DNA of 42,841 nucleotides, from assembly GCA_004214185.1 (NCBI GenBank), contig SGZG01000008.1, forward strand, positions 1 through 42,841, given 5' to 3'. Below are positions 522 to 15,905 of the stretch, in pieces. The translations under genes and the position numbers were made by a program. This stretch comes from Flavobacteriales bacterium (lineage in GTDB: Bacteria > Bacteroidota > Bacteroidia > Flavobacteriales > Flavobacteriaceae). Below the pieces are notes generated by a model. That model worked only from the letters and a program-made list of their open reading frames with translations. It did no database searches and was not told the DNA's origin. Positions within the stretch are counted from its first letter, which is position 1, and the number at the start of each line of letters is the position of its first letter.

Positions 522-1301
522 TTAATTATCATTACCTGCTCTATTAAACTTACCTTGAGCATTTCTTGTATTTCCAACATGCACATAAATTTGATCTGAG
601 TGAGATCCTTCAACTAAATTCCAAAAGCTTCCAGCATATTCAGAATTTCTAACGCCTTCAGGGCCGTTTGCAACTGCAAAATCAGCAATATTTTTATAAG
701 CAGCCCAAACTTGAACATCTGATCCCGAACCGATGTAATGCGTTGTAGCTCCTCCATACCACATAACTCCATCATCTACACCTGGCTTCACATTCCATCC
801 CATATATGCATCAATGAGTTCTTGATTTCCAGCTGATGAATTATAACTACCAACTACAAATACATACGGATTGTCCAAATCCAAATTTTCTTTTCCATAC
901 CAGTTTCCTTGCCAGTCTACAACTCTTACTTCATCAGTATGATTATTGAAATAACCCCACCATTTTGCTACTGTTTCTTGCATTTCTTTTTTTTCATCTT
1001 CAGGTAGTTTTTCAATGTTAGCTCCAAGAACAGTCCAAATATCATCTTTGACCATGTCTTCAGCAGAAGCATAAATGTCACTAATCATTATACTATGATC
1101 CGATCCATACCAGTGTCTGTACACAAACGACCTCGCAATAGTTCTGCCTTCTCCAATTGATGCATTTGTTACTTTTTCATGTAAGTCTACAAATTCACCA
1201 ATTTTGTTCAGTGGAACATCTAAATAGGTTTGATTAATAACGTTTTGAGCATTAACAGAAAATGCAAAAAGCATTACTGCTAAATAATTTAAAAGTTTCA
1301 T
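522..1301 (-). CDS. Secreted protein of unknown function with two similar halves
   Basis: This is a 259-residue protein with a signal peptide (MKLLNYLAVMLFAFSVNAQ, likely cleaved after residue 18 or 19), so it is exported. I do not recognise a named family. The mature part appears to be a tandem duplication. Residues about 63-88 (RHWYGSDHSIMISDIYASAEDMVKD after a short strand) resemble residues about 186-212 (THYIGSGSDVQVWAAYKNIADF), and each follows a helix-rich stretch. That strand-helix-strand pattern is compatible with paired dimeric alpha/beta barrel (ferredoxin-like) domains, which is inference. The gene stands alone, divergent from the YHYH lipoprotein gene, between two copies of the terminator repeat. 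Function unknown. Confidence 0.8.
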   Translation of the reverse strand: MKLLNYLAVMLFAFSVNAQNVINQTYLDVPLNKIGEFVDLHEKVTNASIGEGRTIARSFVYRHWYGSDHSIMISDIYASAEDMVKDDIWTVLGANIEKLPEDEKKEMQETVAKWWGYFNNHTDEVRVVDWQGNWYGKENLDLDNPYVFVVGSYNSSAGNQELIDAYMGWNVKPGVDDGVMWYGGATTHYIGSGSDVQVWAAYKNIADFAVANGPEGVRNSEYAGSFWNLVEGSHSDQIYVHVGNTRNAQGKFNRAGNDN

Positions 1302-1385
1302 AAAGTTTTTTTTTGGTTATTTATAAATTTACAAAAATTAATTTATTAGTCAGAAAGTTAGATTTTCTAAATTATTTGGAATAAA

Positions 1386-1419
1386 AAAACGGTTAACTAT
1401 ATAATAGTATAACCGTTTT
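1386..1419. terminator. Terminator-like hairpin, copy 2, between divergent starts
   Basis: AAAACGGTTA at 1386-1395 pairs with TAACCGTTTT at 1410-1419, and the inner ACTA/TAGT continues the stem with a bulge. It sits 84 bases upstream of the start of the minus-strand gene at 522-1301, and 166 bases upstream of the plus-strand gene at 1586. It therefore terminates no visible gene, which suggests a relic. Confidence 0.55.
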
Positions 1420-1455
1420 ATTGTTTTAGTAGATAACTCTATTCAAATATCGAAC
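1406..1455. repeat. tRNA-terminator-associated repeat, copy 2
   Basis: Bases 1406-1439 equal 368-401, and the shared AAATATCGAAC ends at 1455. On the minus strand the segment just beyond contains GTTCGA between short complementary arms TCAAA and TTTGA, reminiscent of a tRNA T-arm. The rest does not fold as a tRNA. The surrounding gap 1302-1585 holds nothing else I can support. Confidence 0.65.
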
Positions 1456-1585
1456 TTTGATATTACACCTCGAGATTTTGAAATTACCCTTCAAACTATA
1501 TACCTAATTCGAAATGATTAACAACATTTTAAGTGTGTTCATTAAACCTATAAGGTAATTTGCTGTCTAAAATTAAAGTGCCTTC

Positions 1586-2557
1586 ATGAGAATTCTATTT
1601 AAATTTTTCATAATAATCCTATTGTTTTCGTGTAACAAAAATGAAGAACCTCAAGAAAAAAATGATTTAAACTGTTCTGGGGATTACTCAACTGCTGGAA
1701 TTTTGGTCGATATCAATGAGGAAATTTATAATGATGATGAATCTGTGAATAACTACAGTAGATACTCATGGTCTTCAGATGGTTCAAACAGAATTCTAAT
1801 TGGTAATGGAATACCAAATCATGAAGTAGGAACCTTCCCAAACCCCAATAACCCTAACACAATAAGAGAACAAAATGTAAACAAGAGATTTACCCTTTGT
1901 CCTGAAATAATTACAGAAAGTGGATTGGAGGTTGTAGGGCCCGCCTTAGCGATCGCCTACGCACTTAACAGTGTCAAGTTTGATCCTGCGACAGCAGGGA
2001 GATGCAATGATGTTGGCGAATGTAGTTTAGCACAAGGTCAGGGGAATTGGAATATTGAAGCCTTAGGTCATGACACTTTTGACTTTGGAGATGACATGAA
2101 TCATGCTCATGTCCAACCTAATGGTGAGTATCATTACCATGGAATACCAGAACTGTTGTTAGATTTTCTTGGCGATAATCAAGGGATGACAATAGTTGGA
2201 TGGGCTTCAGATGGGTTCCCAGTATACGCAAGATATGGTTATTCTGACGCTAATAATTCTAACAGCAGTATCAAGTCACTAACTCCGAGTTATAGGTTAA
2301 AATCTGAACCTGATGCTAATAGACCTACAACTTTAACTGCATTAATTGGTGGGCCTGGTCAGGGCACATCCAATCCAAATACTCCAATCCCAATGGGTGC
2401 ATTTACACAGGATTATGAATACGTTGAAGGCCTTGGAGATTTAGATCAATGTAATGGACGATTCGGAGTAACCCCGGAGTTCCCTGAAGGGATTTATTAC
2501 TATGTTGTCACAGATGATTTCCCTTTTTTCACAAGATGCTTAAAGGGTGATTTATAA
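1586..2557 (+). CDS. YHYH-domain lipoprotein
   Basis: This is a 323-residue protein. Its N-terminus has a short hydrophobic segment and a lipobox ending LLFSC (Cys16), so it should be lipid-anchored. The YHYH signature is at residues about 181-185 in HVQPNGEYHYHGIPE, followed by GWASDGFPVYARYGY at about 205-219, the typical downstream block of YHYH proteins (PF14240). The domain's biochemical role is not established; clustered His and Asp residues (DDMNHAHV before the motif) suggest metal binding, which is inference. Cysteines at 140 and 146 and near the C-terminus could form disulfides. The gene is monocistronic, and the terminator at 2566-2601 starts 8 bases after its stop. It is flanked by two copies of the repeat. 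Confidence 0.85.
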   Translation: MRILFKFFIIILLFSCNKNEEPQEKNDLNCSGDYSTAGILVDINEEIYNDDESVNNYSRYSWSSDGSNRILIGNGIPNHEVGTFPNPNNPNTIREQNVNKRFTLCPEIITESGLEVVGPALAIAYALNSVKFDPATAGRCNDVGECSLAQGQGNWNIEALGHDTFDFGDDMNHAHVQPNGEYHYHGIPELLLDFLGDNQGMTIVGWASDGFPVYARYGYSDANNSNSSIKSLTPSYRLKSEPDANRPTTLTALIGGPGQGTSNPNTPIPMGAFTQDYEYVEGLGDLDQCNGRFGVTPEFPEGIYYYVVTDDFPFFTRCLKGDL

Positions 2558-2565
2558 GCAATTAA

Positions 2566-2601
2566 AAAACGGTTACACTTTTATAAAAGTATAACCGTTT
2601 T
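2566..2601. terminator. Bidirectional terminator shared by tRNA-fMet and the YHYH gene
   Basis: This is the longest of the three hairpins. AAAACGGTTA at 2566-2575 pairs with TAACCGTTTT at 2592-2601, there is one C-A mismatch, then ACTTT pairs with AAAGT, leaving a TTAT-type loop. Minus-strand reading ends in TTTTTT and follows the tRNA by 10 bases. Plus-strand reading ends in TTTTATT and follows the YHYH stop by 8 bases. Confidence 0.85.
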
Positions 2602-2611
2602 ATTGTATTAG

Positions 2612-2614
<3 letters not shown>
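2588..2614. repeat. tRNA-terminator-associated repeat, copy 3 (at the intact tRNA)
   Basis: It matches the first 27 bases of copies 1 and 2 with a single T-to-A difference. The match stops at 2614, which is tRNA position 71. This is presumably the parental copy because it is attached to a functional tRNA. Confidence 0.7.
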
Positions 2615-2684
<70 letters not shown>

Positions 2685-2738
2685 ATTTGGACTGTAAATA
2701 TATAATAAATTAATTTTGTGAGGAAGAAATATATATTT

Positions 2739-3671
2739 TTACTTTTTATATACTTCTTTTTTCATTGCAATTTTTGGAGTTCTATCTTCTTTAAATACTC
2801 CCCAATGTTTCTCAGGCTCAAAAGGATCGTTTGATCCTTTCCACGGTTCGTCAAATGCTTCAAATAAAAATGTTAGAACTTTTTCTTCTTCACTCCATTT
2901 TGACAATTGTTTATAATATATTTTTTGAAAATGTTCACTTGTGTTGTGTTTCTTAATTTCTAGATCATTTGTACTGGAAGTCCATCCAGCTTCAGTAATT
3001 ACAATTAATTTTTCAGGATATTTAGAGCGAACTAAATTCAAATTTTCTATTGTATAATCAAGTGCATTATCAATGTAAATATTTTCCCATTGAGGGTAGG
3101 TGTGAATAGAAATAAAATCAATTACCTCAACTAGTTTTTCTAATTTATTTACCCAAGTCACATAATTTTCACAAAAAGTAACAGGTTGTTTGGCTTTAGA
3201 TTTTATAATTTTTGCAAATTTAACAACACTATCAACAGGAACCATATGATCTGTCCAGCTAACACAAGCTTCATTTCCTATTGAAAGTGAAAAAATAATT
3301 TCAGGAAATTCATTACCAAATTTTGCTAGCAAGTCTATTCTTTCAAGATTTCTTTTTTTGTTAATCTCTAATTGTTCATTGGAATATTCACCTCCCCAGG
3401 GACAAGAGTAGTTATTGACTTCTGCCTCAATATAACAGCCAAGCATTACTTTCAAGGGAAGTTTTTCATTTTTTATGACCTCTAAAATAGTTTTTGAATG
3501 AAAATCACAGCTATATAACCTAATATACTTCCATGTTTTATTTACTATAAAAAGATCTTCTTTAACTTGATTATAAGTAGGGTAGATTTCACCAGGACTT
3601 TGACCTTGTCTGTAACCTGAATAGCATACAGCTTGTCCATAATCTATGTTAAGTATTTTTGAATAGTCCAA
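2739..3671 (-). CDS. GH17 family beta-1,3-glucanase-like protein, no signal peptide
   Basis: This is a 310-residue TIM-barrel glycosidase. GH17 hallmarks are SIGNEACVSW (acid/base Glu134) and VITEAGW (nucleophile Glu227), plus FISIHTYPQW after strand 6 and FEAFDEPWK near the end, where Trp and Glu shape the glucan subsites. GH17 enzymes act on beta-1,3-glucans with retention. The N-terminus MDYSKILNIDYG has no export signal, so the enzyme is predicted to be cytoplasmic. It is the last gene of the seven-gene glucan operon, 2 bases after the neighbouring GH17. It is closer in sequence to the lipoprotein GH17 at 8482-9780 than to its immediate neighbour. Hydrolase or transglycosylase activity cannot be told apart by eye. 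Confidence 0.85.
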   Translation of the reverse strand: MDYSKILNIDYGQAVCYSGYRQGQSPGEIYPTYNQVKEDLFIVNKTWKYIRLYSCDFHSKTILEVIKNEKLPLKVMLGCYIEAEVNNYSCPWGGEYSNEQLEINKKRNLERIDLLAKFGNEFPEIIFSLSIGNEACVSWTDHMVPVDSVVKFAKIIKSKAKQPVTFCENYVTWVNKLEKLVEVIDFISIHTYPQWENIYIDNALDYTIENLNLVRSKYPEKLIVITEAGWTSSTNDLEIKKHNTSEHFQKIYYKQLSKWSEEEKVLTFLFEAFDEPWKGSNDPFEPEKHWGVFKEDRTPKIAMKKEVYKK

Positions 3672-3673
3672 TA

Positions 3674-4558
3674 TTAAAATTTTAATTTTTCATCTTTATC
3701 CCACAATCCCCAGTATGCTCCAACATCTCCTTCTACACCAACTTTCCACGACTCATCAAAAGCTGAAAAATAAAACATTTCAATGTTATCTTCAAATGAC
3801 CAATTTTGTGCATTTATGAAGTATTTAAGTGCGTTTACTTTAGATGGGTGAGCCCCTTGTAAACTTGCACCTTTGCTTGGCCATCCTGTTTCTGTAATAA
3901 TTACCTTTTTACCTTTTCCAGCTGATTTGGCCTCAAAATACATTTGTTTCATGTACATTAAGGAATAGTCTAAACTACAACCTTCCCAATAAGGATAGCA
4001 ATTAGCTAAAATCACATCACAAGAATCAGATAAATTTGGTCTGGAAGAAAATTCATAGTAAGCATCAACATACCCAGTTGGGATATCTCCAATTTCTTTT
4101 TTAACTAAATTAATGTAATCAATAAGTTCATTTTCAGACATTTCTTTTCTGTATAAAACCTCATTTCCAACTCCTGCAACATTAACATGACCAGATTTAC
4201 ATAAAGAAATCAATCCATTAATTTCTTTTTCATTTGTGAGCTTATTATCACTTAGCCATGCACCAACTAGTGTCTTTAAACCTAATTCCTTCGCAAGAAC
4301 TGGAATTCTTTCATTTCCTTCTGTGCAAGAAAATGTTCTAATCCATTTAGTGTAGGGCTTAATAATATTTAATTTTCTTAAAATTTGCTTATCAGAAATT
4401 TTATCACCAGGCTCTTGACCTTCATCATATGCACTAAAGCACAATCCATGAATTCCTTGTTTTAGAAATTTATTACAAAGTTTTTTTAGTTCAGACTCAG
4501 AGACAGTGTTCAAATTAATACCTGTTAATGAATGTAGCTTTTCCCTTCTATAAGACAT
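3674..4558 (-). CDS. GH17 family beta-1,3-glucanase-like protein, no signal peptide
   Basis: This is a 294-residue GH17 protein. The acid/base lies in VAGVGNEVLYR (Glu133), and the nucleophile in VIITETGWPSKG (Glu223), the classical GH17 signature including the WPS triplet. LANCYPYWEG and FSAFDESWKVG fill the positions held by HTYPQW and FEAFDEPWK in the paralogue next door. No signal peptide is present (MSYRREKLHSLTG), so a cytoplasmic location is inferred. It lies 4 bases after the sugar symporter gene and 2 bases before the terminal GH17, so it would meet sugars that the symporter brings in. The likely role is cleavage or transfer on imported beta-1,3-gluco-oligosaccharides. Confidence 0.87.
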   Translation of the reverse strand: MSYRREKLHSLTGINLNTVSESELKKLCNKFLKQGIHGLCFSAYDEGQEPGDKISDKQILRKLNIIKPYTKWIRTFSCTEGNERIPVLAKELGLKTLVGAWLSDNKLTNEKEINGLISLCKSGHVNVAGVGNEVLYRKEMSENELIDYINLVKKEIGDIPTGYVDAYYEFSSRPNLSDSCDVILANCYPYWEGCSLDYSLMYMKQMYFEAKSAGKGKKVIITETGWPSKGASLQGAHPSKVNALKYFINAQNWSFEDNIEMFYFSAFDESWKVGVEGDVGAYWGLWDKDEKLKF

Positions 4559-4562
4559 GTTT

Positions 4563-5975
4563 TTATTTATTTTTTAATTTCAATTTTTCTTTAATCTCAT
4601 TGGCTCTTTCCTCAGTAATATCATAATCCTTCATTATATATATAGCAATTAATATTCCCAAAATAGGAATAAGAGTATAAAAAATTCTCATCCCATCTAT
4701 TGCAAATTCAGTCACATTATCAGCATCAAATCCAACAAATTGTAACGTTAAACCACTTAAAAGACCTGCAACTCCAAAACCTAATTTTACCATCCACCAA
4801 TAAACAGCTCCAAGAACACCCTCTCTTCTTTTCCCGTTTTCAAGTTCATCTAAGTCACATATATCTGCAGTCATTGACATCATTATTGTAAATAGACTTC
4901 CTATTCCAAATGAGTGAAATGGTAATGCAAATAAAAACATATAGGGTTTTCCAGGGATAAATAAAAACCAAAATAAAATGTATCCAATAATTGAAATTAG
5001 CTGAGATATTATAAATGCTTTCTTTTTTCCAATTTTCTTGGACATAAAAGTTATAACAGGTATTACTAGGAATGAAGTAATCAAAGCTCCAATTGATCCA
5101 TGAAGAGCGGGCCAGTAGTCAGCTGCACCGGTATCACTTCCAAATAAATAATGAACGATTATTAAAAAAGTAAATGGCGCTATTACCTGAAAAGAATTAA
5201 AAATCAAAAATGTAGCTATTGCTATTTTTCTGAAAGGTTTAATTCGAAATGCCCCAAAAGCATTAATAAATATATCTTTAATGCTATTACCAATATTTGA
5301 TACGTTTATGGGTTTTAAATCTGTTCTATTCTTAGTTGATTCACTTTTTATAAAAATCGCAGGAGCAATTGCAAAAAGTGTACATGCAATTGCTACCCAA
5401 ACAGATAATTCTCTAACACCTTGCTCAGCACCCTCGGGGTAAATTTCAGGTTCATATAGTATGATCCAAAACCATGGAGCAATAACCCAAGCCCATTGTC
5501 CTACAAATTGAGCAATTGCCATTATCTGGGTTCTTTCATGAAAATCATCACTCATTTCATAACCCATAGCTACATAGGGAACACTAAATATGGTTAATCC
5601 AAGATAAAAGACAAGAGACCATAGCAAAAAATAAATAAAGTTATAAGTTAAACCATTTTCTGCGTATAACTGCCACATAGCAACATAAGAAATACCCATT
5701 AATATTCCACCAATAAAAACATATTGTCTTCTTCTTCCCCACTTAGACTTGGTATTATCTGAAATAAATCCCATTAGTGGGTCTGTTACAGCATCAAATA
5801 ATCTAGGTGCAAATTGTAAAATTCCCCACATTATTGCAGCAAAACCTAAATCTTGTACTAAAACAATTATAAAAACTCCTAATGCTGCTGGAAACATTTG
5901 GTTTGCCAACATTCCAAATCCAAAAGCTATTTTTTCACTTAAACTAACTGATCTTTTTATATTACTATTTTCCAT
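4563..5975 (-). CDS. GPH-family sugar:cation symporter (MFS)
   Basis: This is a 470-residue inner-membrane protein with about twelve hydrophobic helices. The family fingerprint is DAVTDPLMGFISDN then SKWGRRR at residues 61-83, the conserved Asp-rich loop of glycoside-pentoside-hexuronide:cation symporters (melibiose carrier group). A second family-typical stretch is MSMTADICDLDELENGKRREG near residues 365-385; this is the central cytoplasmic-loop motif. It is placed between GH30 (upstream, 4-base gap) and two cytoplasmic GH17 genes (downstream, 4-base gap). The substrate is therefore probably glucose or beta-gluco-oligosaccharides released outside. Coupling to Na+ or H+ cannot be read from the sequence. 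Confidence 0.9.
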   Translation of the reverse strand: MENSNIKRSVSLSEKIAFGFGMLANQMFPAALGVFIIVLVQDLGFAAIMWGILQFAPRLFDAVTDPLMGFISDNTKSKWGRRRQYVFIGGILMGISYVAMWQLYAENGLTYNFIYFLLWSLVFYLGLTIFSVPYVAMGYEMSDDFHERTQIMAIAQFVGQWAWVIAPWFWIILYEPEIYPEGAEQGVRELSVWVAIACTLFAIAPAIFIKSESTKNRTDLKPINVSNIGNSIKDIFINAFGAFRIKPFRKIAIATFLIFNSFQVIAPFTFLIIVHYLFGSDTGAADYWPALHGSIGALITSFLVIPVITFMSKKIGKKKAFIISQLISIIGYILFWFLFIPGKPYMFLFALPFHSFGIGSLFTIMMSMTADICDLDELENGKRREGVLGAVYWWMVKLGFGVAGLLSGLTLQFVGFDADNVTEFAIDGMRIFYTLIPILGILIAIYIMKDYDITEERANEIKEKLKLKNK

Positions 5976-5979
5976 GTTA

Positions 5980-7461
5980 TCAGTTTTTTAACGTGATTGT
6001 TTGAATGGCTTGCGGGCTAATTGAAATAGATTTAGAAAATCCATTTAAATTTAGGTTGAAACTCTTTTTTTCACGCCCTTCATTAAATAAAACAATAGCA
6101 ATACTTTTATCTGGATTAAGAGCTGCAGTAACCATTAACTCAGGATCGGAATTTATTGCATCAATAATCTCTGCACCTGGTCTTATATACTTACTAAAAT
6201 GTGTCATGACATAATAAAGTGGAGTATAATATATTTCATCAATTGCTGGATCAACAATTATAGGTGCCACACACCAATTACTAACCCAATTTGGACCTCC
6301 TTGTGTATCTAGAACCATATTCCAGTCTACCCATCCATCAACCCAGTTATTTAAAGATCCAATTATATCTCTTGAATATCTATTGAATGGAGCATATTTT
6401 GGATGTAAATATTTTTTTTCGTCTTCTCTCCAGTCGTATCCCCAATCAGTTGCTTCTTTTCTAAAGTACCAGTCGTCATCATTCCAGTGTGGAATTTCTG
6501 AATCAACACATGCTTCTGTTTGAATTAAATATTTGTTTGGTGCTTTGTTATGAGCATATTGAAGCTCATCTGGGTAAAATTCAAAAGTACTATCATACCA
6601 ATGAACAGCAGTTCCATCAAAATATTTAGAGGATTCTTCATTTTCAAACATTGAGTCAACCCATTTTTTAAGATCTGCTCTATTTTGATCGTATCCAAGA
6701 ATTATGATATCTTCTTTGCCATCTTTTTCCAATTGAGGACCCAAGTAATCTTTAACAAAATGCGTCATTTCTTCAGGTGTATAATGCATACTTTCCCAGC
6801 TTGAATTATTTCCATGAGGTTCATTTTCAACTGTAAATCCCCATATATCAATACCTTGTTCTTTGTAAGCATCAACATATTTAGAGAAAAATAGAGCCCA
6901 AGTGTCGTAGTATTTTGGTAATAATTTTCCACCTTTCCACTCATTGTTATCTTTCATCCATGGAGCAGCTGTCCATGGAGATGCGAAAATTTTAAATCCA
7001 TCTTGTGAAACTTCCATCGCTTCTTTTATCATGGGAATGATATCATCCATATCTTCTTTTATAGAAAAATGTTCAAGATTTATATCTCCCTCTACAGGGC
7101 TGTATGAATAATTTGAAATAGAAAAATCACATGAATTCATGTGAGTTCTTGTAAGAGAATAATTTGAACCTTTTTCAGAAAAATAGGCATCTATAATTTC
7201 TTTTCTTCTTTCTTTACTCATTAGATTTAATAAGTAAGCAGATGATTCTGTGAAAGCTCCACCAAATCCTGTAATAGTCTGATATTTTTTTTCAGTATTT
7301 AAATTAATTTCAGAGATTTTTCCAGAAATATTAAATTCTTTTAGTTCTGTTAGCTTATTTCCATTTCTAGAGGTTTCAAAAATTTTAATTTCCATTTCAG
7401 AATTATTTTTACATGAAAAAAATGATAGTGTAATTAATAATGATTTTAGAAGATTATTCAT
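5980..7461 (-). CDS. GH30 lipoprotein, probable beta-1,6-glucan debranching glucosidase
   Basis: This is a 493-residue protein with lipobox SFFSC (Cys17), so it is lipid-anchored outside the inner membrane. GH30 landmarks are ITGFGGAFTESSAYLL at residues 63-78, the GFTVENEPHG acid/base motif (Glu214) and the YLIQTEAC nucleophile motif (Glu316). A beta-sandwich C-terminus (about 420-493) ends in the typical SISPQAIQTITL. Characterised GH30 enzymes from marine Flavobacteriia laminarin loci remove beta-1,6-linked glucose branches. That role fits the GH17 and phosphorylase neighbours but is inferred. Beta-1,6-endoglucanase or beta-glucosidase activity is an alternative within the family. Confidence 0.88.
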   Translation of the reverse strand: MNNLLKSLLITLSFFSCKNNSEMEIKIFETSRNGNKLTELKEFNISGKISEINLNTEKKYQTITGFGGAFTESSAYLLNLMSKERRKEIIDAYFSEKGSNYSLTRTHMNSCDFSISNYSYSPVEGDINLEHFSIKEDMDDIIPMIKEAMEVSQDGFKIFASPWTAAPWMKDNNEWKGGKLLPKYYDTWALFFSKYVDAYKEQGIDIWGFTVENEPHGNNSSWESMHYTPEEMTHFVKDYLGPQLEKDGKEDIIILGYDQNRADLKKWVDSMFENEESSKYFDGTAVHWYDSTFEFYPDELQYAHNKAPNKYLIQTEACVDSEIPHWNDDDWYFRKEATDWGYDWREDEKKYLHPKYAPFNRYSRDIIGSLNNWVDGWVDWNMVLDTQGGPNWVSNWCVAPIIVDPAIDEIYYTPLYYVMTHFSKYIRPGAEIIDAINSDPELMVTAALNPDKSIAIVLFNEGREKKSFNLNLNGFSKSISISPQAIQTITLKN

Positions 7462-7467
7462 ATTATT

Positions 7468-8478
7468 TTATTTGTTGTTGTATTTATTTTTAATTACTTC
7501 AAATGTTTTCTTTTTGTTTCTTTCAATATCTACAATTCCCCAATATTCTTCATTTGGAGCTCCGTCATATGGAACTCCGATACTATTTGGAGCCCATCCA
7601 CCAACATCTTGTTTATCAGGGTTTCCAGCTTTCCATAAACCATCAATAAATTGAAATATTAAAACACCTGATACTTTGTCCGAGTTATTAAATACAGCAT
7701 CAATAATTTTTGCATTTGCATCGGCTTGAGCAACTTGATTTTCTCCTTGTGAATAACCGTATTTTTCAATAGTCATATAACTGTCACTTCCTGCTTCAGA
7801 AAGATATAACGGTTTGTCACTTATTTTTACCCATTCTTTAAGTAGTTCAGTTGGATCGTCCCATCGATAAACGTTAATTCCCCAAGCATCTAAATTATCA
7901 AGCTTTCCTATGAGAGATTTTTCAGGTATTTCTCCGTGTGCAGTTGTAACAGGTTTAGATTTATCTATTTGTTTAATTTTTAAAGCTGCTACATTTAGAG
8001 CATCATACCAATTATTGATATCTCCTTCAAACCACTCAGAATGATAGTTGTATTCATTTCCTAATTCCCAAAATAATATAGCATTATGGTTTTTATATTT
8101 TTGAACATAATTTGTAAAAGAGCCCGTAAGGATATCGTAATATCCATCTTGGTTGTAGCCAAATCCTATAATAACTTTTATTCCCGCATCATCTATTTTA
8201 TTGAGGACGGAAATGTTATCAATAGGAGAATAAACACGAATTGTATTAATTCCTGCCTCTTTCATTAATTTTAAATCCTTATCAATATTATTGAAACTTC
8301 TTTTCTCAGTGCCTATTGGTACAGGATCGTAGCAAACACCCTTTATAAAATATTGTTTGTCATTAATTAGAATAGTCCTGTTTTTAATAGAAATAAGATC
8401 ATTGTTATTATAATCATAAAAATTCCAACCAATAGCAAAAATTAAAAGGATTACAAGAAGAGAATATCTTAATTTCAT
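7468..8478 (-). CDS. Membrane-anchored GH2/GH5-like TIM-barrel glycosidase, subfamily unclear
   Basis: This is a 336-residue protein with a hydrophobic N-terminal segment (residues 5-19, no good cleavage or lipobox), so it is probably signal-anchored facing the periplasm. The barrel begins with NRTILINDKQYFIKGVCYD, a strand pattern seen at the start of GH2 catalytic domains (PF02836). It continues with AGINTIRVYS, the acid/base motif FWELGNEYN (Glu142) and the nucleophile motif LYLSEAGS (Glu228). These are clan GH-A retaining residues. The sandwich domains of true GH2 enzymes are absent, and I cannot place it in a numbered family. Its operon position between a GH17 and a GH30 lipoprotein gene points to beta-glucan, possibly beta-1,3 or beta-1,6 links. 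Confidence 0.72.
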   Translation of the reverse strand: MKLRYSLLVILLIFAIGWNFYDYNNNDLISIKNRTILINDKQYFIKGVCYDPVPIGTEKRSFNNIDKDLKLMKEAGINTIRVYSPIDNISVLNKIDDAGIKVIIGFGYNQDGYYDILTGSFTNYVQKYKNHNAILFWELGNEYNYHSEWFEGDINNWYDALNVAALKIKQIDKSKPVTTAHGEIPEKSLIGKLDNLDAWGINVYRWDDPTELLKEWVKISDKPLYLSEAGSDSYMTIEKYGYSQGENQVAQADANAKIIDAVFNNSDKVSGVLIFQFIDGLWKAGNPDKQDVGGWAPNSIGVPYDGAPNEEYWGIVDIERNKKKTFEVIKNKYNNK

Positions 8479-8481
8479 TGT

Positions 8482-9780
8482 TTATTCATTTATTGGTGGA
8501 GTTAGAATACTATTAAATAAAGTTTCACTGTTACCATTAAAGGTTTTTAATATTGAATTGCCATTTCTTGTTAGTCCATTAAAATCTCCACTATCAACAT
8601 TTTTCCATAGAGCATACTTTGCTTTTCCATCAACAGTAAACAATCCAAAATGATTTTCTGATCCATTAGTATTTCCTGTAGAATCTTTCCATGGTTCATC
8701 AAATGCTTCAAAATAAAAACAACTTATTTTTTCTTCTTGAGTCCATTTTCTTACTTTCTCAAAAAACAATGCTTGCTTGTACTCATCCGCTGCGTGACTT
8801 CCTTGCTCTCCATACAATTCATTAGAAACAGTGGACCAACCCAACTCACCAATGTGTACCTGTTTATCTACACCAATTTTTCTTAAATAATTTTTTACAC
8901 TTTTATATTGAGAAACTGTGTATTCAAAAGAATTTTCCATTGACTTATTTATGATTTCTAAATCAGAAAATTTATTTTTAAGGTCTTTATTAAAATTCCA
9001 AAATGATGGATTGTAATGAGTATCGTGAAATGCGTATGTGTGCATTGAAATAAAGTCAACTGCTTCAATTAAAGCATTTAAATCTTCAGTATGATATGAA
9101 TCGTCACCACCACCCCAAGAAGCGAAATTATCTGAGCTTGTAATCCATAAATTTTCAGGAAGCTTTCTTTGTTTTTTTAAATCCTGAAGGTGATTAACCC
9201 ATTTTAATATAACACCAGGTTTAACATAATAACTCCATGCCCAATTAACCATTGCTTCATTTCCAACTGCAATGATTTTAACAATTTCAGGGTACATGTT
9301 CGCAAGGTTAATTGCTTTTTGTATTTCAATTGCATTAGCAGACTCGTCTTCTTTTTCATGATTAGGACTATCTGTCCAAGCATTTTCACAATCGATCCAT
9401 GCTCCAAGCATGACATACATTTCAAAATTAGAGTCTGTTAGTTTAAGCTCTTTTATAGCTTTTAAAATGTTAGATGCTTGTGGTAATTGTAAATTATAGG
9501 TTCTTAAAATTTTTATTCCTAATGAAGAAAGTATTTTTAAATCTTCTTTGAGTTCATCCATCGTTGGTTGAATATCTCTGGTATTATGTCTATAGCCACC
9601 ATATGAAATTGCTAAATATTTAGGATTATTTAAAATTTCTTTAGCTGTCATTTCTTCATTGTGAATCATTTGATTTTCTGTTGAGTTACATGAAATAAAC
9701 AACCAATAAACCAATAAAGCGATCAGATGAAATCTAATTACTTTATGTTTCGAAAGGTTAATTATTTCTTTTTTTATCAT
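8482..9780 (-). CDS. GH17 lipoprotein, beta-1,3-glucanase-like
   Basis: This is a 432-residue protein. A basic N-region is followed by a hydrophobic stretch and lipobox LFISC (Cys31), predicting a lipoprotein. Catalytic motifs are AVGNEAMVNW (Glu175) and HIGELGWS (Glu312), where the usual TE of GH17 is replaced by GE. FISMHTYAFHD and YFEAFDEPWK correspond to the same blocks in the cytoplasmic GH17 at 2739-3671. The barrel is longer than in its paralogues because of an insert near residues 250-285, and there is a C-terminal tail after residue 395. The start codon overlaps the stop of the phosphorylase gene as ATGA, indicating translational coupling. Its probable role is laminarin or oligosaccharide cleavage outside the cytoplasm. 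Confidence 0.85.
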   Translation of the reverse strand: MIKKEIINLSKHKVIRFHLIALLVYWLFISCNSTENQMIHNEEMTAKEILNNPKYLAISYGGYRHNTRDIQPTMDELKEDLKILSSLGIKILRTYNLQLPQASNILKAIKELKLTDSNFEMYVMLGAWIDCENAWTDSPNHEKEDESANAIEIQKAINLANMYPEIVKIIAVGNEAMVNWAWSYYVKPGVILKWVNHLQDLKKQRKLPENLWITSSDNFASWGGGDDSYHTEDLNALIEAVDFISMHTYAFHDTHYNPSFWNFNKDLKNKFSDLEIINKSMENSFEYTVSQYKSVKNYLRKIGVDKQVHIGELGWSTVSNELYGEQGSHAADEYKQALFFEKVRKWTQEEKISCFYFEAFDEPWKDSTGNTNGSENHFGLFTVDGKAKYALWKNVDSGDFNGLTRNGNSILKTFNGNSETLFNSILTPPINE

Positions 9781-12700
9781 ACCCCAATACTTACATTAAT
9801 ATGTTTAATAATATTTTCTCGGTTAAAAATAGATTTACTTGAATCATTATCTAATTCATTACCCTGAACAATTACAGACTTACCATCAATGAAGTTTATA
9901 GTAATGTTTTTGTTACTAGATTTAGAATAAATTATAGGAACTTGACAATAAGTAAAACACAGAGAATCTTTTTTTACTAAAATTTCAGAAAGCTGTTTTG
10001 ATAAATTAACGTATCTAAAAATTTCATCATTTTTTAAAAATTCTTGATCTCTAAGCATAATTGGATTAAAACTTATTAATCCATTATTAACTTCAACACC
10101 AAGTTCACCAAATCTTGAAATCACATCCTCCTTAACTTGTCCAGTCATCCCTGGTTGTTGTGCACCTTTTCCAGCAGGTGTATGAGAATATGGATCAGTT
10201 GGGAAGGCTCCATATAATTCCGGAGATTTATTAACTCCAATACCTTCCAAAATTTCAAAATAGTGATCAAAAAATCTTCCTATTATTCTTTTATCTCCTT
10301 CTTTAATAGCTTTCTTTGTAGTTTCAAGAACTGCTAAAGAAAGTTTTGAAACCATATGCCAATATATTGACCCAAGTCCCTCATATCCAAAGAAAGTTCC
10401 GGATCTTCCTGTGAACTCTTTATGGTTAAATACATCTTCAAAAATTTGTAGAACATTGTTGTATTCCTTTTTTACTAGTTCAGAATATTTTTCAGGTAAT
10501 TGATTTAGCTCGTTCACTAAATTATTGGCATTGTTGAAATCACAATTAAAATGATAAACACCCTCACAATCTTTTGAAATTATTTGTTTATTCCCATCAT
10601 TGACTAATTTGGTTAAAAGATTGGAATTTTTAACTTTTAAAGTTGGAATAGTATTCTTGTCTAAAAACAATCCTAAATCTTTATTTGGATAGAGTATGTA
10701 ACTGTATTGATCTTCTCTAAATAGTTTACTTGACTTGAGTGCATCAAGAACTTCTAAATTTTCTTTTGAATCTAGATATCCAGAACTTAAAACTGCAACT
10801 TGACCTTCAAGCATTTCAGGTAAATATGAAATAGAAATTTCATTATCGTTAATAGTTAAGAGATTGTAAGCATGGTAGAGCTTATCACTTCTTTTATTTG
10901 AATCGATTGAGTGGTCAATATAAATAAGGAGAAGTTTTGTTAAATCTTTGATTTCTTTTATTCCAATTGCTGATTTTATACCAGAAAAACCATTATCATA
11001 TATAGTATTCCTATAATTTGAGCCAGCATGACCTAGCAGGTCAACAATTTTTTTTCTGTCAGAATCAGAAATAGAAGATTCTAAAAGACCTTTATTTTCG
11101 TTAAGAGCTGAATAAATTTCATTGAAAAACTTATTTATCTCAGTAGATACTTCAACCGAAATATAATCAGTTTTCTCAAGAACTGACTTAAAGAAATTCA
11201 CAAATCTTCTTAAATAGTAAAGCGTAACCATTGAAATTCCATTTCCAACCAATGCATTGTTAGCATCATTCCACTCTGGCCTTTGAGTATTCATCCATAT
11301 TCCACCCTCAGGAACAAAATTTGAAACTTTAGCAAGAAGTGTTGCCAATATTTTTTCAATAAAATTTACTCTGTGTATATCTGTATTATTATTATATAGT
11401 AATGATCCGTCAACTCCAATTTCACTTCTTCTTTTATTTATAGTTGATTCACTTTTATGATCATAATCTATAGTGTTTTTGGAATCTTTTAAAATTTCTT
11501 CGTAAGATTTAATCCTGTAAGGAACATTTGCGTAAACAAATAAACTTTTTGAAAAATATTTGTATAGTTTGTTGGGGAAATGACTCTCTATAAACTCTAA
11601 AAACTTCAATAAATATATGATTTGATGGTCACCCCAATAACCAATATAAGACCAAGGGTTATCTGGTTCGATTGTTTCCCAGTCAAATCCATCTTTTGTG
11701 ACTCTGTATGGATTGTATCCATCAAAGGTTGTTGAGTTTAAAAACTTGTGAATCATACCTTCAATAAATTGAGGATAAGAATAGGCCAAAGCCTCCCAGT
11801 TTTGAAAAATATCTCTCCAGTTTCCTTGGTAGTCAAGAATTTTTGATCCATCAATCTCACTTCTTGTATTGATTGAAAACTTATTCCAAGGTCTACTTGG
11901 ATCTCCATGTCTTCTACTAAATTTTAATGGTAAGTACTCAGAGCATAATCTTTTAAAATCATGATTAGAAATATTCTCAGAAATTGATTTTAAATCATGA
12001 AGAGTAAAAATATCTGGAAGATTGTTTAAGGTTTCGTTAAAAGATTGATAAATAAAGGAATTCGCTTTTTTAACATAAGGTAAAAAGTCATTTTTTTCAA
12101 TTTGATAGTTGTCATCAAATATTCCTCCTCTCATGATATTAAACATAGTATTGGAAAAATGTCTAATCATTCTGAGTTTATCATTGGTTAATTGTAACCC
12201 ATCTGAATTTCCTACTAATTCTCTTAAGTTTTTTGAACCAAGAACAATGTCTTCTTTAACTTTTGATTCTAAATCGCTGTCGTTAGATATTGATTTTTTT
12301 AAACTCACAACGTCAGAAATAGTTTGATTGACATTACAAATTACCATCCATTCTTTTGTACTATTTTGATCTAGATCAATAGATTTATTTATAAAATATG
12401 CCCCTTTTTCTGCTTTTATTTTGAATTCATTTTTCAACTTAATTCCTTTTCTGAAATTATTTAGTTGGAGAGATGACAATAGATGTGTTGAATTAGAAAA
12501 TCCTGTTGACCATACCGTATTAACTTTTAACGCTTCGCTGGGCTCAGCTTTATCAACAATAATAGCACTCAAAGAGAATAGTCCTAATTTACTTTTGTTA
12601 TCTAATTCGCATTTTTTGTATGCATCTACAAGATTACTTTGTGCATTCTGAAGTCCCTCCCCAACTCCGTAGGGCAAAATGTTTTGAATGCCATCAAGAA

Positions 12701-13226
12701 GATCAATAGTTATTTGATTGTCACAATTATTTTTTATGAAAGATTTTCTAACAAATCCATATTTATTGCTTGAGTTCCACTGGTAATTGAATTCAATATT
12801 TAAATCATGATTTATTTCTTCAAAAATTATTTTGTTTCCTATTGTGTTTTTATAAATATTTCTTGAAATATTATATATTCCAGAGTATTTTTCTGAGAAG
12901 GGTTCCCATAAATAATTTTTTCCTGATTTTTTAATAATTAAAATTGTTTTACTTCCAGTAGTTTCACTCGATTCAGTTATCTTATCATCAGTGTAATATG
13001 GAAATAAAGCATATTCACTATTTTTTCTTCCTGCAGAGAGACTTCCAGTACTGGAAATAAACATCCAGTGATTTGAATTGCTCACTATGCTCATAAAAAA
13101 TGGACGCATATTGTCCACATTAGATATTTTATAAAAATTTTCGTTTTCAATTTTGATTTGTTTTCCTTCAACTTTTCTTTCATTATTGAATGATTCTAAG
13201 TTTCCAATATGAATCTTTTCTGGCAT
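9777..13226 (-). CDS. GH94-clan glucan phosphorylase, most like GH149 (beta-1,3-glucan phosphorylase)
   Basis: This is a 1149-residue protein without signal peptide, hence cytoplasmic. The N-terminal half is beta-rich (GSLSAGRKNSEYALFPYYTD at 61-80, NILPYGVG near 182-189), as in the sandwich domain of cellobiose-phosphorylase-type enzymes. The (alpha/alpha)6 part includes DYQGNWRDIFQNWEAL at 465-480, YIGYWGDHQ at 527-535 and RPEWNDANNALVG at 649-661. Asp654 in the WND triplet corresponds to the general acid of GH94-type inverting phosphorylases. The length and layout match GH149, which phosphorolyses beta-1,3-gluco-oligosaccharides to glucose-1-phosphate; GH161 is the main alternative. It is the first gene of the operon and is coupled to a GH17 gene. 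No promoter box was found upstream, only the dyad at 13358-13373. Confidence 0.75.
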   Translation of the reverse strand: MPEKIHIGNLESFNNERKVEGKQIKIENENFYKISNVDNMRPFFMSIVSNSNHWMFISSTGSLSAGRKNSEYALFPYYTDDKITESSETTGSKTILIIKKSGKNYLWEPFSEKYSGIYNISRNIYKNTIGNKIIFEEINHDLNIEFNYQWNSSNKYGFVRKSFIKNNCDNQITIDLLDGIQNILPYGVGEGLQNAQSNLVDAYKKCELDNKSKLGLFSLSAIIVDKAEPSEALKVNTVWSTGFSNSTHLLSSLQLNNFRKGIKLKNEFKIKAEKGAYFINKSIDLDQNSTKEWMVICNVNQTISDVVSLKKSISNDSDLESKVKEDIVLGSKNLRELVGNSDGLQLTNDKLRMIRHFSNTMFNIMRGGIFDDNYQIEKNDFLPYVKKANSFIYQSFNETLNNLPDIFTLHDLKSISENISNHDFKRLCSEYLPLKFSRRHGDPSRPWNKFSINTRSEIDGSKILDYQGNWRDIFQNWEALAYSYPQFIEGMIHKFLNSTTFDGYNPYRVTKDGFDWETIEPDNPWSYIGYWGDHQIIYLLKFLEFIESHFPNKLYKYFSKSLFVYANVPYRIKSYEEILKDSKNTIDYDHKSESTINKRRSEIGVDGSLLYNNNTDIHRVNFIEKILATLLAKVSNFVPEGGIWMNTQRPEWNDANNALVGNGISMVTLYYLRRFVNFFKSVLEKTDYISVEVSTEINKFFNEIYSALNENKGLLESSISDSDRKKIVDLLGHAGSNYRNTIYDNGFSGIKSAIGIKEIKDLTKLLLIYIDHSIDSNKRSDKLYHAYNLLTINDNEISISYLPEMLEGQVAVLSSGYLDSKENLEVLDALKSSKLFREDQYSYILYPNKDLGLFLDKNTIPTLKVKNSNLLTKLVNDGNKQIISKDCEGVYHFNCDFNNANNLVNELNQLPEKYSELVKKEYNNVLQIFEDVFNHKEFTGRSGTFFGYEGLGSIYWHMVSKLSLAVLETTKKAIKEGDKRIIGRFFDHYFEILEGIGVNKSPELYGAFPTDPYSHTPAGKGAQQPGMTGQVKEDVISRFGELGVEVNNGLISFNPIMLRDQEFLKNDEIFRYVNLSKQLSEILVKKDSLCFTYCQVPIIYSKSSNKNITINFIDGKSVIVQGNELDNDSSKSIFNRENIIKHINVSIGV

Positions 13227-13357
13227 TTAAATATAATTTAGGTTTTAATAATTGGTTTTAAATGTTGTTTTGTTGTTGTTTAACAAGGTTAAAATCCCTT
13301 ATTTTTCAAATCAATTAAAATTAATTTTAAATAGTAAATCTTTTTCTGATAAAACCT

Positions 13358-13373
13358 TTACATAATTATGTAA
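13358..13373. promoter_or_regulatory. Perfect 16-base palindrome, candidate operator for the glucan operon
   Basis: TTACATAATTATGTAA equals its own reverse complement. It lies 131 bases upstream of the phosphorylase start codon and 300 bases upstream of era. A dimeric regulator site is plausible, but in DNA this AT-rich a chance palindrome cannot be excluded. No regulator gene is adjacent. Confidence 0.35.
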
Positions 13374-13636
13374 GATTTGTCTAGTAGGTATAATTAATTT
13401 CTTCTCTGTAGAATATGTTTTTTATATAAAATGTAATGTTGTATAAATTATTGATGTCTAAGTATTGTATAGGTATTTTTAACAATTTTAAGTTTTTTTT
13501 AATTTTAGTAATAAGTGCTATTTTGTCTTTTTATTAGATAAAAAAGAATTACTTTGTTAATCTTTAATATTTACAAGATTTAGTTTAACGATTTCAAATA
13601 AATTACTGTAATTTTTTATAATATCTTTAAAATTAA

Positions 13637-13666
13637 TTGATATCTAGATTTACAATTATAAATTTG
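13637..13666 (+). promoter_or_regulatory. Bacteroidota-type promoter of era
   Basis: TTG at 13637-13639, 19 bases, then TAAATTTG at 13659-13666 matches the Bacteroidota consensus (-33 TTG or TTTG, -7 TAnnTTTG). Only 7 bases separate the box from the era ATG, so the transcript should have a leader of a few bases or none. Confidence 0.7.
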
Positions 13667-13673
13667 CATGTAA

Positions 13674-14555
13674 ATGCATAGATCAAGTTTTGTAAATATT
13701 ATTGGTAATCCTAATGTTGGAAAATCTTCATTAACCAATGCCTTGATTGGTCAAAAACTTTCAATAATTACATCAAAAGCTCAAACAACTAGGCATAGAA
13801 TTCTTGCCATTTTAAATCATGAAGATTATCAATTGGTAATTTCTGATACACCTGGTGTCATAAAACCATCTCATAAGTTACACAAATCTATGATGGACTT
13901 TGTCTCGTTAACAACTGAAGATGCTGATATTCTTCTATATGTTGTTGAACAAAACGACCACAACCTAAAAGATGAAAAGCTTTTTTCCAAAATCAAAAAC
14001 ATTAAAATTCCAGTTATTTTAGTAATTAATAAAATAGATCTAATTGACCAAGAAAAGTTAAATAATGAATTAAATTTTTGGAATGATAATTTACCTAATG
14101 CCGAAATATGGCCAACATCAGTTAAAGAGTCTTTTAATATAGATAAACTTTTATTTAGACTAATTGAACTAAGTCCAGAATCTCCTCCCTTTTTCCCAAA
14201 AGATCAGCTAACAGATAAAAGTGAAAGGTTTTTTGTGAATGAAATTATTAGAGAGAAAATATTATTAAATTATAAGAAAGAAGTTCCATATTCAGTAGAA
14301 GTTGTGACTGAAGAATTTAAAGAGCAGGAGGAAATAATAAGAATAAGATCTGTTATCAATGTTGAAAGATCAACCCAAAAGGGTATAATAATAGGACATA
14401 AGGGTTCTGCAATTAAAAATTTAGGTACCCAATCAAGAATTGACATAGAAAAGTTTTTTGGAAAAAAAGTTTTTATTGATTTACACGTAAAGGTTAATAA
14501 AAACTGGAGGTCTGATGACAACAAATTAAAAAACTTTGGATATCAGAATAATTAA
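13674..14555 (+). CDS. era: GTPase Era
   Basis: This is a 293-residue GTPase that binds the 3' end of 16S rRNA and assists 30S subunit maturation. Motifs are G1 GNPNVGKS at 11-18, G3 DTPG at 58-61 and G4 NKID at 119-122. A C-terminal KH domain has GHKGSAIKNLG at about 240-250. The length is normal for Era. It is followed after 45 bases by der, another ribosome-assembly GTPase, on the same strand. The start at 13674 is supported by the G1 spacing and the promoter directly upstream. Confidence 0.97.
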   Translation: MHRSSFVNIIGNPNVGKSSLTNALIGQKLSIITSKAQTTRHRILAILNHEDYQLVISDTPGVIKPSHKLHKSMMDFVSLTTEDADILLYVVEQNDHNLKDEKLFSKIKNIKIPVILVINKIDLIDQEKLNNELNFWNDNLPNAEIWPTSVKESFNIDKLLFRLIELSPESPPFFPKDQLTDKSERFFVNEIIREKILLNYKKEVPYSVEVVTEEFKEQEEIIRIRSVINVERSTQKGIIIGHKGSAIKNLGTQSRIDIEKFFGKKVFIDLHVKVNKNWRSDDNKLKNFGYQNN

Positions 14556-14600
14556 TTTTTATAAATAAAAGGTTAGTTTTGTTGGCCTTTAAAAAAAATC

Positions 14601-15905
14601 ATGGGATCAATCGTAGCCATAGTTGGACGTCCAAATGTAGGTAAATCTACTTTTTTTAACAGATTAATTCAGAAGAGAGATGCGATTGTAGATTCTCAAA
14701 GTGGCGTAACTAGAGATCGACATTATGGATATTCGTTTTGGAACGGTAAAGAATTTACAGTAATTGATACTGGCGGATTTATGTTGGGAGGCGAGGACAA
14801 TTTTGAAAAAGAAATTAATTCACAAGTTATTATTGCAATTGAAGAAGCTGATATTGTAGTTTTTGTAGTTGATGTAGAAACAGGTATTAATTCAATGGAT
14901 CTTGAAATTTCAAGACTACTTCACAGATCTGATAAACAAATAATTTTAGCAGTTAATAAAGTAGACAATTCTAAAAGACAGTTAGATTCAACTGAATTCC
15001 ATTCATTAGGTTTTGAAATGATTTTTAATTTTAGTGCAATAAACGGGTCGGGTACTGGAGAACTCTTAGACTGTCTAGTTACATTAATGCCACCTGAATC
15101 TTTAATAGAAAAAGATGATATACCCGGTTTTGCTGTAGTTGGTAGACCAAACGCAGGGAAATCCTCTTTTATCAATGCTCTTCTTGGTCAAGAGAGATAT
15201 GTTGTTAAAGATTTAGCAGGAACCACACGAGATAGTATAGACACTCATTTTAATCGTTTTGGATTTGATTTTAAACTTATTGATACAGCTGGAATAAGAA
15301 AGAAAGCCAAAATTAGTGATGATGTTGAATTTTATTCGGTTGTAAGATCTATCAGAACCATAGAAAATTCTGATGTTTGTTTAATAATTTTTGATGCAAC
15401 TAGATCTTTTGATTCTCAGGTCAAAAATATTTTTTGGTTGGCCGCAAGGAATAATAAAGGAATTGTTATTCTAGTAAATAAGTGGGATTTAGTTGATAAG
15501 CAAACAAATACAATAAAAGCAATTGAACAACAAATTAAAAAAGAAATAGAGCCTTTTTCTGATGTTCCAATTATTTTTATTTCAAGTCTAACGAAACAAA
15601 GAATTTTTAAAGCTATTGAAACTGCAATGACAGTTTATAAAAATAGGTCTAAAAAAATTGTGACCAGAAAATTTAATGATTGCATGCTTCCTATAATAGA
15701 AAAGAACCCTCCTCCTGCATATAAAGGAAAATATGTGAAAATTAAGTTTTGCACACAACTGCCATCATCTTTTCCTCAATTTGCATTTTTTTGCAATCTT
15801 CCCCAATATATTAAAGATCCGTATAAAAGGTTTATAGAAAATAAGATAAGAGAGATTTACGATTTTAGTGGAACACCAATAAGAATATTTTTTAGAAAAA
15901 AATAA
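14601..15905 (+). CDS. der: Ribosome biogenesis GTPase Der (EngA)
   Basis: This is a 434-residue protein with two tandem GTPase domains, the defining feature of Der, which acts in 50S subunit assembly. The first domain has GRPNVGKS at 9-16, DTGG at 56-59 and NKVD at 119-122. The second has GRPNAGKS at 181-188, DTAG at 228-231 and NKWD at 293-296. The C-terminal KH-like domain (about 350-434) ends in TPIRIFFRKK. It probably shares a transcript with era. Its stop codon abuts the stop of the convergent MerR gene with no intervening base. Confidence 0.97.
   Translation: MGSIVAIVGRPNVGKSTFFNRLIQKRDAIVDSQSGVTRDRHYGYSFWNGKEFTVIDTGGFMLGGEDNFEKEINSQVIIAIEEADIVVFVVDVETGINSMDLEISRLLHRSDKQIILAVNKVDNSKRQLDSTEFHSLGFEMIFNFSAINGSGTGELLDCLVTLMPPESLIEKDDIPGFAVVGRPNAGKSSFINALLGQERYVVKDLAGTTRDSIDTHFNRFGFDFKLIDTAGIRKKAKISDDVEFYSVVRSIRTIENSDVCLIIFDATRSFDSQVKNIFWLAARNNKGIVILVNKWDLVDKQTNTIKAIEQQIKKEIEPFSDVPIIFISSLTKQRIFKAIETAMTVYKNRSKKIVTRKFNDCMLPIIEKNPPPAYKGKYVKIKFCTQLPSSFPQFAFFCNLPQYIKDPYKRFIENKIREIYDFSGTPIRIFFRKK

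Follow-up and report, generated by a model that had tools for sequence, protein, structure and literature searches.

The stretch of DNA considered here, called the window below, is a 42,841-nucleotide segment of contig SGZG01000008.1 (assembly GCA_004214185.1) from a Flavobacteriales bacterium of the family Flavobacteriaceae, and between positions 2739 and 13226 it carries a seven-gene glucan operon built around a phosphorylase of glycoside hydrolase (GH) family 149. Judged from sequence, this operon is very probably the relocated downstream half of a flavobacterial laminarin polysaccharide utilization locus (PUL), controlled in trans and standing apart from the upstream half in this clade. 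Gene content, the two loci, the insertion beside the era gene and a promoter site shared by both loci were all computed. In what follows, genomes of the same genus carry G-labels (the bacterium's own genome is G000), individual loci carry L-labels, and the operon contig is C59.

The operon between tRNA-Met and era

All seven open reading frames (ORFs) were confirmed at 2739-13226, on the minus strand. The initial annotation had described seven minus-strand genes with gaps of at most 6 bases and one ATGA overlap, and both coordinates and gaps were reproduced, the latter being -4 (the ATGA overlap), 3, 6, 4, 4 and 2 bp along the operon. It had also described an operon without SusC/SusD, and searches of the whole genome indeed gave no SusD or TonB-barrel match on C59. 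A susCD pair in one cluster with GH16, characteristic of the canonical laminarin PUL (variant 1/B), is thus absent from this contig, while the GH149, GH17 and GH30 genes of that PUL do share one cluster here with a major facilitator superfamily (MFS) transporter. GH149 accompanied by GH17/GH30 and no adjacent susCD corresponds to the carbohydrate-active enzyme (CAZyme) cluster lacking susCD of Kuhaudomlarp 2018.

9777..13226, minus strand: GH149 beta-1,3-glucan phosphorylase; 1149 aa, no signal peptide seen; identified by family model, structure match and motifs
8482..9780, minus strand: GH17A lipoprotein, probable endo-beta-1,3-glucanase of the Formosa GH17A type; 432 aa; GNEA (173), ELGW (312)
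7468..8478, minus strand: GH2L, a GH2-type TIM barrel without the GH2 sandwich domains; hydrophobic N-terminus; GNEY (140), SEAG (227)
5980..7461, minus strand: GH30 lipoprotein, which by its family probably removes beta-1,6 side chains; Pfam 272.5 bits
4563..5975, minus strand: MFS_2 (GPH-like) sugar symporter; 470 aa; Pfam MFS_2
3674..4558, minus strand: GH17B, no hydrophobic start; Pfam GH17, 46 bits
2739..3671, minus strand: GH17C, no hydrophobic start, TTG start codon, GH17A-like minus the export signal; Pfam GH17, 31.7 bits
2611..2684, minus strand: tRNA-Met, left neighbour of the inserted operon
13674..14555, plus strand: era (GTPase Era), right neighbour, divergently transcribed

Within the genus, a GH149 match is present in 10 of 22 genomes, and its placement is of two ARRANGEMENTS: beside era in seven genomes (era-type: own, G014, G007, G019, G018, G001, G011) and after GH16 in three (PUL-type). 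The other six era-type proteins are 82-84% identical to the GH149 of the window, those of the three GH16-adjacent genomes 65-66%. The era gene was found in 19 of the 22 genomes, giving seven filled and eleven empty sites; G020 stands outside this count, its contig beginning inside era. Where the site is empty, tRNA-Met lies 79-83 bp from era in all eleven relatives examined; where it is filled, the five of seven genomes whose contig reaches that far have tRNA-Met at the other end of the operon. An operon of about 11 kb is set between tRNA-Met and era, and, the empty site being the wider state in the genus, a gain at era is the simplest reading. The seven-gene order is identical in all five era-type loci fully covered by a contig (own, G014, G007, G018, G011; the contigs of G019 and G001 stop within the operon), so that the operon is not a product of chance.

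No direct repeat joining both edges was found among 20 of 22 repeat families, a further search taking each edge by itself, and Pfam revealed no integrase in any of the 28 window ORFs of at least 100 aa (two of them without a family). A second Era-like gene, 59% identical, was noted on contig C12 (1156-2028) of the same genome and represents either a foreign contig or a paralogue; G005 also has two Era genes.

The partner locus and the paired promoter site

The own genome (1.378 Mb in 60 contigs, 82.8% complete) holds two SusD genes (C32, C46), 12 TonB-barrel matches and two GH16 genes (C40, C10), and no GH17 was found in it outside the window at E 1. On contig C46 are found a Y_Y_Y/LuxR-type regulator, SusC, SusD and the beginning of a PKD protein; contig C40 has the last part of a surface protein together with a 301-aa lipoprotein (H301), GH16, a second propeller/Y_Y_Y protein and GH5. 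A single ORF of G014 (849 aa) matches the C46 piece at 1-193 and the C40 piece at 358-849, and one of G015 (848 aa) matches them at 3-195 and 357-848; since one ORF spans both pieces, C46 and C40 are parts of one locus. In G016 and G009 the locus is whole and runs SusC-SusD-PKD-H301-GH16-GH149-GH17A-GH2L-(GH30)-MFS. Identity of the own C46/C40 proteins to the whole locus of G016 (L017) is 82% for SusC, 78% for SusD, 52% for the PKD piece, 41% for H301 and 64% for GH16, with SusD 78 and 77% identical to those of the two whole loci. The G020 contig begins inside the 301-aa gene and runs from GH16 to GH149, SusC (81%) being on another contig; in G014 and G007, SusC and GH16 share one contig and GH149 lies on another.

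The initial annotation had suggested that the operon may be a peripheral module cooperating with SusCD genes elsewhere, to be sought through SusCD and GH16; the counterpart lies on C46/C40, with a paired promoter site in common. The SusCD locus on C32, with LacI and GH65 nearby, carries no half-site and was set aside as a partner. Two details of these loci may be recorded here. The propeller/Y_Y_Y protein between GH16 and GH5 on C40 (L099, 4136-7021) has 961 aa, and in G014 and G015 GH5 directly follows GH16. In G017 (C4, L122) the laminarin locus has both its regulator and its SusC split into several frames, which are either pseudogenes or sequencing errors.

The region between GH149 and era, 422-447 bp long, was aligned from seven species; 22% of it is invariant, and the only invariant runs of at least 7 nucleotides are ATAAAACCTTTACA and TTGTATAGGT. 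It holds the two halves of the paired site:

13354..13362, minus strand: proximal half, TGTAAAGGT, at -136 from the GH149 start, within an invariant 14-nt block (13349-13362, seven species)
13466..13474, minus strand: distal half, ACCTATACA, at -248 from the GH149 start, invariant block 13465-13474

Upstream of SusC, 10 of 11 loci were aligned, G017 with its broken SusC being left out; TGTAWAGGT stands at -69 to -81 in all ten genomes and ACCTWTACA at about -206 in five (own, G014, G015, G016, G009). The pattern ACCTWTACA-N100-130-TGTAWAGGT occurs in exactly two places in the own genome, before SusC and before the operon. Across the 22 genomes it occurs in 12 places in 10 genomes, namely all seven era-type operons and five SusC promoters (G000, G014, G015, G009, G016), and the reversed-pattern control gave 0. 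The pattern was picked after these promoters had been viewed, so the hits themselves are expected and the absence elsewhere is the informative part. A promoter site specific to both loci is what a single regulon would be expected to show, and its presence before both SusC and the operon suggests that the regulator encoded beside SusC, a Y_Y_Y/GerE (LuxR-type) protein and the likely binder of the site, probably switches both loci on. Outside the genus, the half-site ACCTATACA is found at -205 to -225 before SusC in L025, L046 and L058. No operator of this kind for laminarin loci was seen among the listed titles and beginnings of abstracts, subscription journals and preprints being outside the scope. 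Five of the seven era-type genomes have a third half-site, ACCTNTACA, at -340 to -344, the window and G007 lacking it. The half-site TGTAWAGGT by itself does not reach significance in the window (2 hits, a count reached by 15 of 100 shuffles), and sigma-70 promoter matches stay at chance level (62 found, 67.2 expected).

Several observations weigh against joint control of a divided locus. The SusC of this locus was found in four of the seven era-type genomes and its GH16 in three; G001, G018 and G019 (66-80% complete) show a match to neither, owing to gaps in the assemblies or to true loss. For the own genome, the separation of the halves is read from the fragmented, incomplete assembly described above. 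The distal half in the SusC promoters of five of the ten genomes (G007, G006, G004, G021, G010) is AACTATACA, one base off the pattern, and the two promoters differ in spacing, with gaps of 102-103 versus 127. Half-sites also occur elsewhere, 66 of them in 1.56 Mb of 80 listed GH149 loci, or about 1 per 24 kb. Other lineages have a half-site before SusC in only three of seven loci with at least 200 bp upstream (L029, L052, L056 and L095 have none), and TAnnTTTG was looked for upstream of the operon without a match.

These points bear unequally on the available explanations. It is quite improbable that the operon works alone on short beta-1,3-glucosides entering through porins, the SusCD locus being a separate system. 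The absence of SusCD beside the operon, a putative porin gene in the window (31775-33679) and the lack of a SusC match in three of the seven era-type genomes would agree with this, but the own genome holds orthologues of the very SusC, SusD, PKD and GH16 genes that adjoin GH149 in G016 and G009, and the paired site links only the SusC and operon promoters and is kept in all seven era-type operons, including the three without a SusC match. An exported endo-glucanase together with GH30 would, moreover, be of little use on disaccharides. The other option of the initial annotation, short sugars that need no SusC, is not needed, although SusC was found in only four of seven such genomes. A separation created by assembly or binning, with the locus in truth an ordinary intact PUL, is scarcely credible: the genome is fragmented, and C46 and C40 are short and broken inside one gene, but the operon stands beside era in seven genomes of the genus, with tRNA-Met beyond it in each of the five whose contig extends to that point, and eleven relatives have the same site empty.

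It is also unlikely that the paired site serves era or a regulator other than the SusC-linked one, in which case joint control by the latter would not be implied. The association is a correlation, transcription of era also leads away from the 447-bp region concerned, one of ten scanned empty sites (L131) has a single ACCTTTACA between tRNA-Met and era, and in other lineages the half-site precedes SusC in just the three loci named above. Against this, the remaining nine scanned empty sites have no half-site before era, and the pair would not fit into their 79-83 bp; in the 22 genomes the pair marks SusC and GH149 promoters only; and in L025, L046 and L058 a Y_Y_Y regulator gene adjoins SusC. 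The relocated downstream half under the SusC-linked regulator remains the preferred reading.

Predicted enzymes and route of laminarin

The GH149 assignment of the initial annotation, for which GH161 and GH94 had been the competing families, was upheld by the family models. The protein encoded at 9777-13226 matches the NCBIfam GH149 model NF058639 at 1776.8 bits (cut-off 1150, residues 16-1147) and the GH149 phosphorylase structure PDB 6hq6 at 1554 bits (residues 8-1147); a GH161 chain reaches 51.9 bits and a chain with the name cellobiose phosphorylase 49.8, and no Pfam model matches the protein at E 0.1. Its WND (652-654), RD (471-472) and His957 equal the active-site motifs of GH149 Pro_7066 (PMC6771811). 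It is a GH149 beta-1,3-glucan phosphorylase, with phosphorolysis as its predicted reaction, and the enzyme families as a whole bear out the beta-1,3/1,6-glucan substrate proposed earlier.

Among the other enzymes, GH17A finds its best structural match in PDB 6fcg, a GH17 protein (567 bits), which we take to be the structure of Formosa GH17A, while its Pfam GH17 score is only 26.4 bits, under the cut-off of 28.2. Two glutamate motifs are kept in all five hydrolases, as expected of their families. GH2L consists of the barrel only (336 aa), and a fold search ranks GH2 enzymes first, with GH158 close behind. The structure of Formosa GH17A has been solved (PMC6246565). GH30 scores 272.5 bits with Pfam and 237 bits with the NCBIfam endo-1,6-glucanase model, below the cut-off of 700; a role in the removal of laminarin side chains is described for GH30 in PMC6298971. 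GH17B and GH17C, at 46 and 31.7 bits, are both above the Pfam GH17 cut-off. The nearest structure to GH17B is the glucanosyltransferase 4wtp (120 bits), and GH17C matches 6fcg at 97.8 bits and lacks an export signal. The TTG start of GH17C at 3671, the last gene of the operon, is found in all five era-type loci holding the gene, the window included, and may make its translation weak.

In Bacteroidetes, an acidic run after the lipoprotein cysteine marks proteins exported to the surface. Acidic residues stand right after or near this cysteine in SusD, the PKD protein and the 301-aa protein, which by this rule would be surface proteins. GH17A, GH30 and GH16 have no acidic run there, the cysteine of GH16 being followed by glycines; by the rule, GH17A and GH30 are more likely periplasmic than external. 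Of the external debranching and trimming envisaged by the initial annotation, the debranching and trimming may be kept, whereas the external site is the less likely one for these two enzymes.

The transporter reaches 205.4 bits with Pfam MFS_2 (cut-off 27) and 179.6 bits with the NCBIfam glycoside-pentoside-hexuronide (GPH) symporter model TIGR00792, below the cut-off of 231.35, and is therefore filed as MFS_2, GPH-like. In the window it and GH17B are two genes 4 bp apart, with no fusion of the FbGH17b kind; among the 80 loci listed, it is fused to a GH17B domain in 15, the domain being 46-57% identical to the GH17B of the window. The model of one fusion (mean pLDDT 79.9, pTM 0.59) has 12 membrane helices, a polar helix at 453-471 and then the barrel, and no thirteenth membrane helix was seen in it from the helices of the model and from hydropathy. 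A simple scan found a hydrophobic start in none of 66 unfused GH17B and none of 11 GH17C proteins among the listed loci. The C-terminus of such transporters is usually cytoplasmic, so that, with no thirteenth helix, GH17B would act in the cytoplasm. The position of the unfused GH17B by the symporter, and of the modelled fused domain directly after the twelfth helix, suggest that the last cuts are made in the cytoplasm. MlGH17B of Muricauda lutaonensis, likewise without a signal, is described as a transglycosylase (PMC11005184), which makes a rearrangement of chains before phosphorolysis possible.

Localisation, transport, enzyme roles and the site-binding protein are predictions from sequence, and together they outline the following route. 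The upstream half (regulator, SusC, SusD, PKD protein, 301-aa lipoprotein and GH16) would provide for the cutting of laminarin at the surface and the import of oligosaccharides, which GH30, GH2L and GH17A would debranch and shorten in the periplasm. The MFS_2 symporter would then carry short chains into the cytoplasm, where GH149, with phosphate, would release glucose-1-phosphate units, aided by GH17B and GH17C.

Evolution of the operon and known systems

The scan of contigs yielded at least 80 GH149 loci; all neighbourhood counts refer to the matches listed. GH17A is the next gene after GH149 in 65 of the 80. Among 62 loci with at least 9 kb downstream, the same-strand run holds, at 38% identity or more, GH17A in 60, an MFS relative in 60, GH30 in 53, GH17B in 52, GH2L in 13 and GH17C in 5. 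Flavobacterial laminarin PULs are known to have this gene set as their core, and its enzymology is ordinary. A relative of the C46 SusC or SusD lies in the flank of 17 of the 54 loci with at least 9 kb upstream; SusCD of longer PULs can sit more than 10 kb away, and the other 37 are not a count of loci without SusCD. Two Schleiferiaceae operons in the list (L022, L026) have an opposite-strand upstream neighbour and are candidate detached halves; L090 was flagged likewise, the ORF concerned (172 aa) being doubtful. In the window, Rfam matched nothing but the tRNA within 1-16000, and a tRNA-Lys called by ARAGORN at 37007-37091 (plus strand), within the opposite-strand gene for the glutamate synthase large subunit (35151-39653), is probably a false positive.

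Five genomes of the genus without a GH149 match (G004, G010, G017, G006, G005) have a protein of 761-762 aa after GH16. Pfam assigns that of G004 to GH3, with which the other four share 83-89% identity, and all five begin with a lipoprotein-like signal. No GH3 stands between GH16 and GH5 in G014, G015 or the own genome, where the contigs break off after GH5, and a whole-genome search gave no GH3 match in the own genome. Mutual exclusion of GH3 and GH149 is suggested, the whole-genome GH3 search covering the own genome only; replacement of GH149 by GH3 has been described for some Muricauda clusters (PMC13188888). A tentative proposal, held at slightly less than even confidence, goes further: the cassette for cytoplasmic phosphorolysis between tRNA-Met and era, governed in trans by the SusC-linked regulator through the paired site, would have replaced the periplasmic GH3 beta-glucosidase still found in the SusCD locus of relatives, and would have altered laminarin use in part of the genus.

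In a quick tree, era-type and PUL-type GH149 are sister groups (SH-like approximate likelihood-ratio test, SH-aLRT, 96), each on a long branch; the GH30 tree is a quick tree as well. Ratios of between-type to within-type distances, taken over five era-type and up to three PUL-type genomes, are high for GH149 (2.47), GH30 (2.23) and MFS (2.95) and lower for SusC (1.81), SusD (1.64), GH16 (1.33), Era (1.33), Der (1.81) and the M23 peptidase (1.36); those of GH17A (1.78) and GH2L (1.36) do not exceed the reference genes. The transporters of the five era-type genomes cluster, in a tree of the MFS proteins, with four loci outside the genus (100/100), and of the two PUL-type rows one forms the next branch (97/94) and the other falls elsewhere. 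The uneven distances and the MFS tree point to the operon as a mosaic that has probably exchanged parts, with one gain, two gains or exchange fitting alike. Simple excision of the half from an intact PUL is not supported, given the uneven distances and a transporter that departs from the GH149 grouping. A 105-aa ORF after the transporter gene of G016 (L129, from 8853) is 74% like the GH5 protein and may be what remains of GH5 after an insertion of the GH149 operon between it and GH16.

Much of this has known counterparts: GH149 clusters with and without susCD, a laminarin PUL lacking SusCD, GH3 replacement and, for carrageenan, a distal susCD. Bacteroidetes clusters in which GH149 accompanies GH17, GH30_1 and GH16/GH3 have been described, together with "CAZyme clusters" lacking susCD and gammaproteobacterial type II clusters with a cytoplasmic GH17 (COG5309) and an MFS of pfam13347 (Kuhaudomlarp 2018, PMC5827456); the enzyme set is alike, whereas, going by the available text of that paper, the missing SusCD half and the promoter site are traced here only. 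The core of GH149, GH17, GH30 and MFS is common to the variant 1/B laminarin PUL (Formosa, Unfried 2018, PMC6246565; Kappelmann, PMC6298971; PMC10108472). The arrangement differs: here the SusCD-GH16 half lies elsewhere in the genome, the transporter and GH17B are separate proteins, and both an insertion site and a shared promoter site are identified. A variant 1 PUL without susCD is recorded for the NS4-clade metagenome-assembled genome W_MB115 (Sidhu 2023, PMC10108472). The carrageenan regulon of Zobellia galactanivorans, a PUL without susCD whose distal susCD pair belongs to the same regulon (Ficko-Blean 2017, PMC5698469), shows a like split for another substrate, established there by RNA-seq and mutant phenotyping and traced here by sequence. 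Laminarin genes are also not in one locus in Maribacter (Kalenborn 2024, PMC11345257), where they are scattered, with no GH17 or GH30 tabled in five strains, in contrast to the two compact halves seen here. MlGH17B resembles the GH17B of the window in having no signal peptide and is 53% identical to the fused FbGH17B (PMC11005184), and its Muricauda lutaonensis strain has a laminarin PUL (PMC13188888). New here are the partner locus, the insertion site with its empty-site relatives and the paired site linking both loci.

The prediction of substrates from PULs relies on genes adjoining susCD, and the laminarin pathway considered here is split into two loci. With a shared site that can be searched for, "incomplete" PULs of small marine genomes may be rejoined by sequence alone, and the paired site itself is a candidate for the operator of a laminarin regulator in marine Bacteroidota. 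Within the genus, three natural states can be compared, with either GH3 or GH149 in the SusCD locus or with GH149 at era, which makes the costs and benefits of hydrolysis versus phosphorolysis of a major marine storage glucan testable.

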